From NCBI RefSeq assembly GCF_000682715.1, contig NZ_AWFH01000001.1, positions 248,001 through 312,000 of the forward strand: a stretch of 64,000 nt of DNA, given 5' to 3'. The notes beneath the pieces are model-generated. The model was not told the origin of the DNA, ran no database searches, and was given only the letters and a program-made list of their open reading frames with translations. The DNA is from Hyphomonas atlantica corrig. (GTDB lineage Bacteria; Pseudomonadota; Alphaproteobacteria; Caulobacterales; Hyphomonadaceae). Positions within the stretch are counted from its first letter, which is position 1. Each line of letters starts with the position of its first letter. A program made the position numbers and the translations under genes. Positions 12,027 through 40,110 of this stretch are shown piece by piece.

Positions 12027-12052
12027 AAAGGCCCGCCAATGCGGGCCTTTTT
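12027..12052 (+). terminator. intrinsic terminator of the M1 aminopeptidase gene
   Basis: Perfect 10-base-pair stem AAAGGCCCGC (12027-12036) / GCGGGCCTTT (12041-12050) with loop CAAT, followed by TT and ending in a five-T run overlapping the stem. It starts 11 bases after the stop codon. Confidence 0.9.
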
Positions 12053-12091
12053 CATGATCGAATTCATCTGAGCGGGCTGTCATGTAGTCTT

Positions 12092-12309
12092 GGTCTTGTC
12101 GCGCCCTAGCCATAGGGGCGTGGCGGTCCGGCCGGGACGGTGACGTCGTTTTGGCCAGCGGATGGAAGGCGGCCCACTGCGCAGGGGTCTACTCTCCTAT
12201 CCACCCTCCTGTTTTGTCCCTGCCTGAGGCGTCGCCTCCCATCCGCAAGGACCACTCACCCAGAAGAACCGGAAGGGAACTCTCCCTATCCGGATTTCCG
12301 TGCGAGACC
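12092..12309 (+). ncRNA. candidate structured non-coding RNA, about 218 nt, unassigned
   Basis: The 293-base space between the aminopeptidase and gdhZ holds no convincing gene but a set of fully nested complementary segments: closing stem 12092-12099/12302-12309; hairpin 12100-12122; stem 12125-12129/12249-12253 enclosing 12158-12165/12239-12246 (perfect 8 bp), 12181-12186/12218-12223 and hairpin 12226-12238; and hairpin 12269-12293. The closing stem and the first hairpin use G-U wobbles that would be A-C mismatches on the other strand, which favours the + strand. I see no RNase P, tmRNA, SRP or cobalamin-riboswitch signature; 6S RNA is not excluded. No intrinsic terminator at the 3' end, which touches the gdhZ stop codon. 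Expression is inference. Confidence 0.5.
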
Positions 12310-15300
12310 TAGTGGCGCATGAACTGGCGCAGCGCATCGACCGCTAGCACGAACCGCGCGAACGCCCAGTTGCGATCCTTGCCCAGCGTATGCAACTCCT
12401 CCAGCAGGGCGCGGCGCGCCCCGTCCCGCTCATCCAGCCAGGCCTGCGCGCCGTTTTCAGACAGCGCCTTCTCGGTGGCATCCGCCTGCATGCGAACCAG
12501 TTCGTTCAGCAGGCGACGCCCGGCGACACGGTCCCAATAATCCGCATGCAACAGATTGTCCCGTGCCATCGCCCGCAGGCGATCGATGCGAAGCTGGTCG
12601 CCAACCATGTAAAATGCCTTGCCGGCCTCTGGCACTTCGACCTGCATTTTTCCGGCAAGGTCTACCACGAGCAGGCCCTGCGCAAACTGCCCCATCGCTG
12701 ACGCCCAGCGCGACAATTCCTCTGACACGCCCCGCTTCATCAGGCCCCGCGCTTCGCGTTCGATCCGCGCCGCCGGGAATGGCGAATGGATATGGCTGAG
12801 CGCCGCCTTGAACTCGTTCAGCGGTGCCTCGGTGCGCTGCACCGCTTCGCCCACGCGAAGGTCCGGATGGGTCTCGATAAACCAGAGTGCTGCATCGACC
12901 ATCGCACTCGCTGCATGCAGGCGCAGATCGGTCTGCACTTCGGCCGGCACGATATTGTCGAGCTGGTCGACCTCGCGCTGGAAACCGTCAAAATTCAGCA
13001 CGGCCCGCGCCGCTTCCAGCCCGCGCGCAACTTGCGCATTGTCACTGCCCGTCACTTCCCGCAAGCGCAGCAGCGCCACCGGCCCTGCCATGTCCAGCAT
13101 GCGATTGGCGATGATGGTGGCGATGATCTCCCGCTTCAGCCGGTGATTGGTCATCGCCTTCGTGTAGGTGTTGATCGGGCTCGGGAAATAGTTCGTCAGA
13201 AGATCATTGAAATATGGATCGTCCGGGATATCAGAGGCCACAATATCATCGAACAGCGTGATCTTCGACCAGGCCAGCAGAACGGCCAGCTCTGGCCGAG
13301 TAAGTGGCTGGCCGCGTTCAGCGCGCACCTTCATCTCGCCGGTTTCCGGCAGGGTTTCCAGCGCCCGGTTCAGCACGCCTCGATTCTCCAGATACTCCAT
13401 CAGGCGCTCCAGCGCGTCATGGTCTTCCTTCGCGGTGGCTTCCGCCAGTGTCAGGGCGAAGGTCTGGGTGTAGTTGTGGCGCAGGACAAGTGCCGCAACC
13501 TCATCGGTCATGTCGGCGAGCAACTCGTTGCGCTTGTCGGCCTGCAGATCGCCTTCGCGAATGGCTTCGGCCGCCAGGATCTTGATGTTGACCTCATGGT
13601 CTGACGAATCGACGCCCGCAGAATTGTCGATCGCATCGGTGTTGATATGCCCGCCGCGCAGGGCGAACTCGATCCTGCCAGCCTGGGTGACGCCGAGATT
13701 GGCCCCTTCCCCGATAACTTTCACTTTCAGCTCATCCGCATTCACACGGATTGCATCATTCGCCCGGTCGCCCGCCATTGCGTGGCTCTCATGCGCGGCC
13801 TTCACATAGGTGCCGATGCCGCCGAACCAGAGCAGGTCAGCCGGGGCCTTCAGCAAGGCGTGGATCAGTTCATCGGGCGTGACCGCATCCTTGGACAGGC
13901 CAGTCAGCGCCTTGATCTGGTCATTCAGCGTGATGGACTTTGCGGACCGGTCAAATATGCCGCCGCCTTCGGACAGGATGCCCTTGTTATAGTCTGCCCA
14001 GCTGGACTGGGGCTTGTCGAACAAGCGCTGGCGTTCGGCCAAATTCTTGCCGGCATCGACCGGGTCCGGATCGATAAAGATGTGCATGTGGTTGAATGCG
14101 GCGACGAGACGGATTTCCGGAGACAGCAGCATGCCATTCCCGAATACATCCCCGCTCATATCGCCCACGCCGATCACGGTGAAAGGTTCGGCTTGAATGT
14201 CCGTACCCAGCTCGCGGAAATGGCGCTTGACGGCTTCCCAGCCGCCCCGCGCGGTAATTCCCATTTTCTTGTGGTCGTAGCCCGCAGAGCCGCCGGACGC
14301 AAAAGCGTCGCCCAGCCAATGCCCCATTTCTTCACTGATGGCATTTGCCGTATCCGAGAAGGTTGCCGTGCCCTTGTCGGCCGCGACAACGAGATACGGA
14401 TCCTCCCCGTCCCAGACGATCGTATCAGCGGGGTGTGACACCTCCCCTTCCACCAGATTATCCGTGATCCCCAGAAGCGCGCGGATGAACTCCTTATAGG
14501 CATCACGGCCGGCTTCGAACCAGGCATTTCGGTCTGAACGATCCGGCAATTGCTTCGGCAGGAAACCACCCTTGGACCCAACCGGTACGATCACCGCGTT
14601 CTTCACCTGTTGGGCCTTCACAAGGCCAAGCACTTCCGTGCGATAGTCCGACGCACGATCCGACCAGCGCAAGCCGCCCCGCGCTACAGCGCCGAAGCGC
14701 AAATGCACGCCTTCGACCTGCGGGCTGGACATGTAGATTTCCCGGAACGGCTTCGGTTCCGGCAAATCCTCCAGCTCGCGGCTGGCGATCTTCAGGCTGA
14801 CAAAGCTATACGGCTCACCCTCACTGTTTGTCTGATAGAAATTCGTGCGTTGCACCGCGAGGATCAGATCGGCCAGACGGCGTAGCACCTGATCGTCTGC
14901 CAGCGCGGAAACGTCGCGCAGCGACATTTCGATTTCCTCGCGCACTTTCTCCGCAGCGTGAGAACGTTCTGCCAGTGACATCTCCCGCGCAGGATCGAAC
15001 CGTGTCGCGAACAAATCCAGCAATTGCCGCGCAATGCCCGGATATGTGGAAAGCGCCGTCTCCTGAACATATTGAGGCTGTTCCATACCACTCTGGCGGC
15101 GATAGCCGGCAAGCGCACGGATCAGGGCCGCGTCACGCCAACTCGCCCCGGCGCAGAGGACCAGCTTGTTGAATCCATCATTTTCGGCGCGCCCGCTCCA
15201 AACCGCCACAAATGTATCTTCCAGTGTGGTCCGGATATCGTTCAGATCGATATAGGCACCATTCGACGTGCACATGACCACGTCGTGCACCCAGTAGGTT

Positions 15301-17036
15301 TCCGGCGCATCCTCCGCAGGGCGCTCCGTCGGGCGCACCGGGAAGCCTGTTTCGAAATCGACGAAGAATCCCATTTTCTCGAAGATCGGCACACAGGCTG
15401 ATAGCGGAATGGATCCATTGCGAGAATAAATCTTTACGCGGATCTTGTCTGCGCCATCGCGCTCCATTCGATAGGCTCGCGCGAGGATCGGGTGCGCGGC
15501 CGATAGATTTGCCATTGCGGCGACATCGCGCATGGCCTCATCCGGGCCGAATGCCTCGCGATAGGCTGCGTTGAACGCCCCAATGAACGCCCGCGCGTTC
15601 TCCTGATGGGCACGTTCGAGGTCAGATTGCACAAGCGCCGAACGGAACCCCTGCTCCCATGTCCGCGCGATCTCAACGATGCGTTTTTCCAATGCCGCAA
15701 GATCCGGCAACGGATGGCCCTGATCCAACCAGATTTCAAAATGAACCCGCACAAGCGTCTCGGAATCGAAGTAAGGTCGGAAACGCGTGACCCGTCCCTT
15801 GTACGCCGTCACCAATTCTTGGGTGATACGCTGGCGCATTGTGGTGTCATAGGCTTCACGTGGCACGTAGACGATGGCCGTGACAAAGCGGTCGAACTGG
15901 TCCTGCCGCACGAACAGCCGCGTGCGCGGACGACCAATCAGGTGCAGCGCGCCGACAATGATCGGATGCAGGATCTTCGAGGAAGTCTGGAACAACTCAT
16001 CCCGCGGCCAGGTTTCCAGTAGATTGGTAAGCGCCTTCTCCGTATGCCCGCCCGGCGTCGCCCCGGCAGCTTCCAGAATGGCGGCAATACGACGACGGAT
16101 CAACGGAATGGACCGCGCGGTCTCGTCATAGGCTTCCGCCGTGAACAGGCCCAGGAAGCGCACTTCACCGTTCACGCGACCTTCAGCGTCATATTTCTTG
16201 ACGCCCACATAGTCGCACGCAACCCGACGGTGGACGAGGCTGACCAGCGTCGATTTCGCGACAAGGATCGGATAGGGCTCCGACAGGTGCGCACCAATCT
16301 CTGGCGTCAGGATCAGAGGCTCGGCCTCACGCGACAGGACGTTCAGCTCCCCATCGCGCAGGACGCCGAGATTCGACCCTTCGACCATGATGGGCTCTTC
16401 CGGCAGCACGTGCCCCTCGGCATCAGTCTCGAAATCGTACTCGCGACAGCCGAGAAAAACGAAATGCTCCCGCGACAACCATTTCAGGAAGGCCACCGCC
16501 TCATCGCGGTCCATGTCCTTCAGGTGGCTCACACCTTCCAGCCGGGCGATCTCCTGCTGCATACGTGCGCGCATTGGCTCGAAATCGGCTACAGCGACCG
16601 CGTTATGGGCCAGCGCTTCCCGCACCCCCTGCTTGAGGCGCTCTGCCTCCAAATGCGTCAGGATCGGCAGGTGGACCTGAATGATCGATATGCTGCGACC
16701 GTCCTGCAGCTTCACAATCGGGTGAAACAGCGCAGCAACCTCAAAGCCCTGCGCGCCGCATTCGCCGAGGACGGAGTCCACCAGGAAGGGCATGTCAGGG
16801 CTGACCGTCTCCAGAATGGTGCGAGACAGCGAATTGCCCTCAGCGCCCTCAGCTTCCAGCAGGACCCGCACATCCTGATCGCCAGCGGCAACCTCCACGG
16901 CCCAATCCCAGTGCCGACGCGCGAGGGATTTTAAATCCTCCTGCGTCAGGCCCGTTAAATCTTCATGCCCCGATTCACGGTGAATTTGGTCAAATACCTG
17001 CTCGATTGGCTCAGATGAGGCAGGAATTTCTGTCAT
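12309..17036 (-). CDS. gdhZ: NAD-specific glutamate dehydrogenase, large (about 180 kDa) type
   Basis: 1575 residues, the normal size for the L_180 class. An N-terminal half of ACT-like regulatory regions precedes the catalytic core, where FGAVARGGLRWSDR (near residue 785) and KAQQVKNAVIVPVGSKGGF (near 805) match the family's glutamate/catalytic-Lys region, followed by the Rossmann part with GVGDMSGDVFGNG. It deaminates glutamate to 2-oxoglutarate with NAD in the cytoplasm. The Caulobacter orthologue GdhZ also moderates FtsZ assembly; whether that holds here is not visible. Single gene with a long 5' region containing alternative hairpins (see 17161-17210). Confidence 0.95.
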   Translation of the reverse strand: MTEIPASSEPIEQVFDQIHRESGHEDLTGLTQEDLKSLARRHWDWAVEVAAGDQDVRVLLEAEGAEGNSLSRTILETVSPDMPFLVDSVLGECGAQGFEVAALFHPIVKLQDGRSISIIQVHLPILTHLEAERLKQGVREALAHNAVAVADFEPMRARMQQEIARLEGVSHLKDMDRDEAVAFLKWLSREHFVFLGCREYDFETDAEGHVLPEEPIMVEGSNLGVLRDGELNVLSREAEPLILTPEIGAHLSEPYPILVAKSTLVSLVHRRVACDYVGVKKYDAEGRVNGEVRFLGLFTAEAYDETARSIPLIRRRIAAILEAAGATPGGHTEKALTNLLETWPRDELFQTSSKILHPIIVGALHLIGRPRTRLFVRQDQFDRFVTAIVYVPREAYDTTMRQRITQELVTAYKGRVTRFRPYFDSETLVRVHFEIWLDQGHPLPDLAALEKRIVEIARTWEQGFRSALVQSDLERAHQENARAFIGAFNAAYREAFGPDEAMRDVAAMANLSAAHPILARAYRMERDGADKIRVKIYSRNGSIPLSACVPIFEKMGFFVDFETGFPVRPTERPAEDAPETYWVHDVVMCTSNGAYIDLNDIRTTLEDTFVAVWSGRAENDGFNKLVLCAGASWRDAALIRALAGYRRQSGMEQPQYVQETALSTYPGIARQLLDLFATRFDPAREMSLAERSHAAEKVREEIEMSLRDVSALADDQVLRRLADLILAVQRTNFYQTNSEGEPYSFVSLKIASRELEDLPEPKPFREIYMSSPQVEGVHLRFGAVARGGLRWSDRASDYRTEVLGLVKAQQVKNAVIVPVGSKGGFLPKQLPDRSDRNAWFEAGRDAYKEFIRALLGITDNLVEGEVSHPADTIVWDGEDPYLVVAADKGTATFSDTANAISEEMGHWLGDAFASGGSAGYDHKKMGITARGGWEAVKRHFRELGTDIQAEPFTVIGVGDMSGDVFGNGMLLSPEIRLVAAFNHMHIFIDPDPVDAGKNLAERQRLFDKPQSSWADYNKGILSEGGGIFDRSAKSITLNDQIKALTGLSKDAVTPDELIHALLKAPADLLWFGGIGTYVKAAHESHAMAGDRANDAIRVNADELKVKVIGEGANLGVTQAGRIEFALRGGHINTDAIDNSAGVDSSDHEVNIKILAAEAIREGDLQADKRNELLADMTDEVAALVLRHNYTQTFALTLAEATAKEDHDALERLMEYLENRGVLNRALETLPETGEMKVRAERGQPLTRPELAVLLAWSKITLFDDIVASDIPDDPYFNDLLTNYFPSPINTYTKAMTNHRLKREIIATIIANRMLDMAGPVALLRLREVTGSDNAQVARGLEAARAVLNFDGFQREVDQLDNIVPAEVQTDLRLHAASAMVDAALWFIETHPDLRVGEAVQRTEAPLNEFKAALSHIHSPFPAARIEREARGLMKRGVSEELSRWASAMGQFAQGLLVVDLAGKMQVEVPEAGKAFYMVGDQLRIDRLRAMARDNLLHADYWDRVAGRRLLNELVRMQADATEKALSENGAQAWLDERDGARRALLEELHTLGKDRNWAFARFVLAVDALRQFMRH

Positions 17037-39339: not shown

Positions 39340-39993
39340 TCAGGACGAGTCCGGCCAGTCGGCCAGCGCGCGGGTCAGCAGGCTCGGCAAGGCAGTGGAG
39401 ACGCTGCCCAGCTCTGCGCCGAGGCGGAAATCGCCCGCGCTGGGCGGGCAGACGGGGCGCGCTTCGCCCGCTTGCTTCATCTGCGCCAGATGCCGCGCGA
39501 GCCGCCGGGCGGCTGGCTCAGGATCACTCAGCACACGGTGCAGCGCCACGATCTGTGCAATCAGCGGCGCGGCAAGCACCGGGCCGGAGGGTTGGGCCGA
39601 CGCGCTGACCGAACCGGCAAACACCTGGTGCCAATCTATCAGGCCGGACACCGCCCGCCCGGTGAGGCGCAGGCGAAAGGCGGGCGGCTGAAGCCCCGCG
39701 AAACTGTCGGTCACGTCTTCCACGCCATCCGGCAAGCTGTCCGGCTGCGCGGCGGGGGCGCCCTGCCCGCGCGCAGCGAGCGCGTTCGGCGCAATTTCCA
39801 ACGCGCTGGCCATCAAGGTGATCAGCCGCCGGACAATGGTTTCAATGGCTTTCAGGCGGCTGCGCACCCTGGCGCGCAGGCATTTGGTCACGTGTGTCGG
39901 CTCCAGATGCAGCCCGGCCTCTGCCCGCACCCCCTGCAACGCCGTCCGCGCCGCCGCCAGCCCCTGCTCCACAAATGCCTGCATCCCATTCAT
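39340..39993 (-). CDS. conserved-looking hypothetical protein
   Basis: 217 residues, Ala/Arg-rich, no signal peptide or membrane helix. An N-terminal helical segment (AFVEQGLAAARTALQGVRAE, KAIETIVRRLITLMA) is followed by a Pro/Gly linker and a stretch FRLRLTGRAVSGLIDWHQVFAG and helical C-terminal part. Codon use and third-position GC match the surrounding genes, so it is likely real, and it resembles small alphaproteobacterial proteins of unknown function, but I cannot name a family. A start at the fourth codon (39984) is possible. Faces the repeat cluster. Confidence 0.55.
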   Translation of the reverse strand: MNGMQAFVEQGLAAARTALQGVRAEAGLHLEPTHVTKCLRARVRSRLKAIETIVRRLITLMASALEIAPNALAARGQGAPAAQPDSLPDGVEDVTDSFAGLQPPAFRLRLTGRAVSGLIDWHQVFAGSVSASAQPSGPVLAAPLIAQIVALHRVLSDPEPAARRLARHLAQMKQAGEARPVCPPSAGDFRLGAELGSVSTALPSLLTRALADWPDSS

Positions 39994-40110
39994 ACGAGAA
40001 AGTCTAGGGGCGGAGTTTATCAGACGGATTGGGAACTAATACGCGGTCGCCAGAAAGCCCATCAGTCAAGATTACTTCGGGTCCGCACAAATTCCAGTAC
40101 TCATTCTGAA

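Follow-up and report, generated by a model that had tools for sequence, protein, structure and literature searches.

The interval from about 12097 to 12298 on the + strand of the window, the 64,000-nt stretch of Hyphomonas atlantica DNA analysed here, is almost certainly an independently transcribed gene for a structured RNA and one paralogue of a multicopy Hyphomonas family, as judged from sequence comparison. On the same comparative evidence this is a real RNA family, restricted to the genus Hyphomonas and lacking from Rfam 15; in kind it is a small RNA gene, with an unusual copy number, architecture and promoter sharing. The gene lies between an M1 peptidase gene (+) and the convergent NAD-glutamate dehydrogenase gene (gdhZ, 12309-17036, - strand), which falls outside the RNA; both neighbours are as named in the first-pass annotation. 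That annotation had also proposed a stable RNA or a 6S-type RNA. A stable + strand RNA is upheld by covariation, by conserved promoter- and terminator-like ends and by the many genomes that carry copies, whereas the 6S-type assignment is not. If this reading is right, Hyphomonas possesses structured RNAs in multiple copies that form a family without an entry in Rfam 15 and have a recognisable promoter class; members occur in cultured strains (H. oceanitis SCH89, H. chukchiensis BH-BN04-4 and H. beringensis 25B14_1).

The nested stems originally described at this site are present in the sequence. The 218-nt stretch at 12092-12309 (+) folds with a minimum free energy of -109.3 kcal/mol (z -4.71), and none of 200 dinucleotide shuffles was equally stable, while the minus strand stands out less (z -2.55, with 3 of 200 shuffles as good). 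In the predicted gene (12097-12298, +), whose start was taken from the promoter-like motif and whose end from the 3' hairpin, a 5' hairpin (P1, 12098-12124; 12098-12107 with 12115-12124), both sides of which are changed in relatives, is followed by a three-way junction closed by P2 (12125-12253; 12125-12129 with 12249-12253). From this junction arise the P3 hairpin (12130-12156; 12130-12140 with 12146-12156) and a long arm, P4 (12158-12246), with a base of 12158-12173 paired to 12231-12246 and a top of 12181-12187 paired to 12217-12223. P4 ends in a G-poor apical loop of 29 nt (12188-12216), and a terminator-like 3' hairpin (12269-12293), followed in the window copy by a weak T tract (ATTTCC), completes the RNA. 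The two covariance models of the family described below (R1 and R2) match the window at 12124-12297. An outer closing stem (12092-12097 with 12304-12309) also belongs to the minimum-energy fold of the stretch and had been taken as part of the RNA. Syntenic relatives retain at most 3-4 of its 6 pairs by eye, and it falls outside the hairpin that is conserved at the 3' end, so that this stem is unsupported. The 3' end of the RNA is therefore most likely close to 12297, some 12 nt short of the end of the gdhZ frame (12309), rather than exactly at the gdhZ stop as had been suggested.

Compensatory change in relatives, which the first-pass annotation had named as a check, is extensive. In a model-fitted alignment of 88 matches (86 of them distinct, and 7 of them antisense echoes that were included in this test), standard pairs fill 91.6% of cells compared with 68.7% in shuffles, double changes occur in 48 of 53 pairs, and 753 cells are doubly changed, the shuffles giving 220 (sd 12). 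When the partners are slid by 1-3 columns, the covariation score falls from 0.40 to 0.04-0.06; shuffles and slides of this kind ignore kinship and form no phylogenetic null. Later tables use the 81 rows kept after removal of the antisense echoes. An alignment made with MAFFT of 20 members of one subtype (type A), found by the model and aligned independently of it, shows double changes in 10 of 33 pairs. It brings out P2, P3, the P4 base and the 3' hairpin but neither P1 nor the arm top, where a local hairpin is seen instead. Against this stands the covariation term of RNAalifold, which for the first six sequences is unfavourable (+3.52) and for the 20 is small (-1.97). The arm base and the junction are near-invariant in sequence, beyond what pairing demands. 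Wobble pairs had been cited in favour of the + strand, and the argument is borne out family-wide: among 2817 cells in 62 rows, G-U combinations (230) exceed A-C combinations (81), and the + strand is therefore read as the RNA.

Gibbs sampling of 59 non-redundant upstream regions returned a promoter-like motif, [CG]AATCCGnC and then nnTAtaCT[GC], separated by a spacer of 14-15 nt in 58 of the 59 and carrying 16.6 bits of information, compared with 9.3-9.8 in eight shuffled sets; this set omits L069 (-), L027 (+), L072, L083 and L084 as well as short or near-duplicate upstream regions. The window copy, placed by the aligned family motif, is weak: GAATTCATC (12060-12068), 14 nt and TGTAGTCTT (12083-12091), spanning 12060-12091 (+). 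Roughly one RNA member in four falls short of 13 bits or scores close to it; the window copy falls short. A matrix scan of 464 kb of the H. atlantica genome gave 26 sites scoring 13 bits or more against 21 in a shuffled copy, and 6 of the 26 are intergenic; since these sites hardly exceed the shuffled copy and few are intergenic, the motif is not a general promoter. For the longer string AATCCGnCTGA this genome has 22 occurrences and a reversed control one. The motif strings were not found in PMC4287350. At the other end of the RNA, the 3' hairpin is kept across the family, with a good T tract in many copies and a weak one in the window copy. Counted as a hairpin alone, the pattern CCGGANGG..CCNGTCCGG is present in 41 of 42 genus genomes.

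A blastn search with 12050-12330 gave matches in 7 of 101 genomes. These comprise the copy itself, three same-genus copies at the same two genes (the gene pair was checked at one, L012) and two further same-genus copies at other places, in which the long arm and the 3' hairpin are retained; a short match in another family (L007) was not counted as a member. These six genus sequences, folded singly, share a common general plan, and a covariance model built from them (R1) was searched against 150 relatives. R1 matches 79 places (81 rows minus two antisense echoes) in 25 of 42 Hyphomonas genomes, at one to five places per genome, some of them weak or partial (for example in L033, L072, L083 and L084), and none of the 108 relatives outside the genus. 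A pattern scan of named genomes yielded 104 stretches; R1 matches 20 of the 80 loci listed, and these 20 are labelled Hyphomonas, Hyphomonadaceae or Alphaproteobacteria. A second model (R2), built from 62 chosen members that it matches by construction, finds 31 of 41 genus genomes and no match in the other 10; 25 of the matched genomes reach E below 1e-8 at one place or more (86 rows, many used for building). Across the order, R2 matches 32 of 398 genomes, 27 of them Hyphomonas and the other five marginal (E 2.4e-5 to 7.0e-4). By eye, two of the loci outside the genus (L270 and L271) resemble plain terminators. Two others, in another family of the order (L268 and L269; E 2.4e-5 and 2.1e-4), combine a long arm and a G-poor loop with a 3' hairpin of the CCGGAAGCGC type, and are possible distant relatives outside Hyphomonas.

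In the H. atlantica genome itself the window copy is accompanied by three other clear copies (C23:169525, C56:174342 and C12:92770) and two marginal matches of a further type. This type is seen in a repeated element (L300, at G000:C6:37664-38194, with L118, L127, L298 and L299) of which one end carries the promoter string AATCCGTCTGA and the other a long arm with a 3' hairpin of the same kind; the halves are found separately as well, in several cases at contig ends. The element gives marginal R2 matches and is perhaps a third type of the RNA family. Across species, same-type copies of the RNA sit next to the same genes, a pattern that speaks for vertical descent. Neighbouring genes with Pfam matches are ordinary, such as those for IF-3, dihydropteroate synthase, Dus and alpha/beta hydrolases, and no mobile-element family is among the 25 most frequent of 63 neighbour Pfam families in a survey that ran 97 of 124 proteins against Pfam. 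A plasmid or phage origin was considered and rejected, as blastn found no match to the RNA in plasmid and phage collections and R1 does not match the single pattern hit in a viral contig.

No Rfam 15 family scores above its gathering threshold in the window, in agreement with the earlier remark that a known class signature is absent, and near the site matches at E up to 10 are weak and far under gathering scores. Among 19 loci scanned with Rfam 15, the 11 other family loci gave no RNA match, with tRNAs and 6S found only outside the RNAs. A literature search over titles and abstract starts, covering few subscription journals, returned no work on Hyphomonas small RNAs.

The most distinctive part of the fold is the loop of the long arm. 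Over 62 rows its median length is 29 nt (24-46) and its G content 9.7%, whereas G makes up 29.4% of the RNA overall and 22.2% of its remaining unpaired columns; its sequence differs even among orthologues, while length and composition are kept. At the foot of this loop a local hairpin competes with the arm top. In the window copy it would occupy 12171-12189 (12171-12175 with 12185-12189, loop ACUGCGCAG), which is suggestive only. Type A members form it with stems of the CCC/GGG kind, and a second subtype (type B) encloses UCGC between stems such as ACAGG/CCUGU, UCAGG/CCUGA, GCAAGG/CCUUGC and GGAAG/CUUCC. We compared own with permuted partners for both helices, in a test run post hoc with the pattern already seen. 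For type B the hairpin gave p 0.0006 (10 rows) and the arm top p 0.023 (12 rows); for type A the hairpin gave p 0.033 (14 rows) and the arm top was equalled in 0 of 5000 permutations (12 rows). Two control pairings gave p 0.76 and 0.50, and the type A arm base, where variation is too low, p 0.23 (8 rows). These results suggest a two-state arm or, in type B, a pseudoknot, for which pairing of a GUCGC loop with GCGGC downstream is possible. In 16 of 36 type A rows, counted without a chance control, the local hairpin contains a palindromic hexamer (for example UGCGCA, GUGCAC or AUGCAU), seen in the window at 12176-12184. Such hexamers could let two RNA copies kiss.

The best explanation of the RNA at about 12097-12298 as a whole, to which we give an even chance and which the parallel with LhrC and GsrN favours, is a trans-acting small regulatory RNA that acts through its exposed loop. 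Transcription would start at the dedicated promoter class and stop at the 3' hairpin, and the RNA would fold into the 5' hairpin, three-way junction and long arm, which would present a single-stranded loop of about 29 nt rich in C, A and U. This loop may pair with purine-rich target sites in mRNA, for example ribosome-binding sites; the competing hairpin at its foot may render its presentation conditional, and several diverged copies per genome might serve different targets or a graded dosage. The loop of the window copy reaches -9.37 kcal/mol at 362 start regions and -7.80 in inner coding sequence, and the other three loops of this genome reach -7.34 and -6.75, -9.85 and -8.86, and -6.99 and -6.64 kcal/mol, respectively. 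Over these four loops and 362 genes, real loops paired with start sites no better than shuffled loops, and pairing with ribosome-binding sites is thus unsupported beyond composition.

The main rival to a trans-acting small RNA, possible if rather doubtful, is a protein-binding scaffold or sponge in which a protein reads the arm base and junction (GCGGAUGG/CCAUCCGC and GCAAGGACC) and the RNA acts by holding that protein and not by base pairing, the G-poor loop being a second contact or a spacer. The near-invariance of these segments in sequence, not just in pairing, fits such a scaffold, as does a loop that preserves length and composition and not sequence; the loops differ strongly between paralogues, however, which a single protein need not tolerate. 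That the unit is instead a repeat or mobile element, dispersed and with hairpins that act at the DNA level or merely end transcription, is quite unlikely. It draws on the 3' hairpin CCGGANGG..CCNGTCCGG, which, with GTGCTG six bases on, is also found solitary, behind other sequence and without a T tract (L137, L139 and other loci of this genome), and on the third, repeated type with the same promoter string and hairpin. Yet the body of the RNA covaries, the copies have their own promoter-like motif and recur at fixed places, plasmids and phages hold no match, and the RAYT-like gene of the genome sits among another repeat. This gene (L257, 1321-2197, below the Pfam cut-off) is flanked by GTAGGGTGGGTT repeats unlike the hairpin of the RNA, and a pattern scan shows no such hairpin beside it, so that a REP element of the resident RAYT was rejected.

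Very improbable is the reading that the site is just a shared terminator or 3' UTR structure of two convergent genes. The site does lie between two gene ends, and the next downstream frame (script-called, at least 80 codons) is convergent in 46 of 62 loci; but directly after the M1 peptidase gene stands a distinct GC-rich hairpin with a T tract (12027-12052) of its own, two relatives have the RNA at other places, and a promoter-like motif precedes it. A 6S-type RNA binding RNA polymerase, which the similar length, stability and intergenic position had recommended, can practically be dismissed. The Rfam 6S model (RF00013) finds nothing in the window, nor close to the site at E up to 10, its one gene in the same genome lies elsewhere (C45:62817-62975, 55.8 bits), and the family fold is Y-shaped, with a three-way junction and a long arm bearing a large apical loop.

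The promoter class extends beyond the RNA. Two intergenic motif sites lie 6 nt upstream of start codons, and some sites precede leaderless genes (L292, L295 and L301). In the window, such a leaderless gene of 217 aa occupies 39340-39993 (-), with a promoter-like site at about 40000-40031 and 6 nt from motif to ATG; its product has no Pfam or NCBIfam match and belongs to a family with as many as 16 matches in a Hyphomonas genome. The L295 and L301 proteins are related (40% identity), and L292 is at most remote (BLASTP E 0.002, a single comparison). The L301 protein family is matched in 28 of 61 relatives, of which 27 belong to the genus, with up to 16 matches in one genome; it has no Pfam or NCBIfam match, and the promoter pattern stands upstream in 10 of 25 examined loci. 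Some genomes have many copies of the leaderless protein and no R2 match (G004, G007, G019, G035 and G036), and others have RNA copies and no match to the protein (G001, G010, G016 and G021). A lineage-specific system, in which one promoter class would switch on both the RNA and the leaderless protein families and the competing hairpin or pseudoknot would gate the 29-nt loop, is conceivable but unlikely. If the RNA family is read correctly, its promoter class gives a handle for finding the sigma factor or activator behind that class, and the leaderless proteins with the same promoter class make up a family as yet unexplored.

Among known systems, 6S RNA resembles the Hyphomonas RNA as a stand-alone stable RNA of similar length and differs in architecture, its gene also sitting elsewhere in the same genome, while the REP elements of RAYT transposases are likewise short, GC-rich, repeated intergenic hairpins, from which the RNA is distinguished by several covarying helices. 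We know of no three-way junction or long arm in LhrC of Listeria. The likeness to LhrC lies in multiple copies and in a low G content, which in the Hyphomonas RNA marks the loop: LhrC is described as G-poor, with five copies per genome and CU-rich single-stranded UCCC motifs that bind mRNA (PMC4132741). LhrC belongs to another phylum, and its targets are proven. Closer in phylogeny is GsrN of Caulobacter, an alphaproteobacterial small RNA whose exposed C-rich loop pairs with G-rich mRNA sites and which is under the general stress sigma factor, with BLASTn matches limited to Caulobacteraceae, according to its description (PMC5869019). The Hyphomonas RNA shares with GsrN its alphaproteobacterial host and a predicted exposed loop; unlike GsrN, it belongs to a family with several copies per genome, has another promoter motif and bears a single large loop poor in G.
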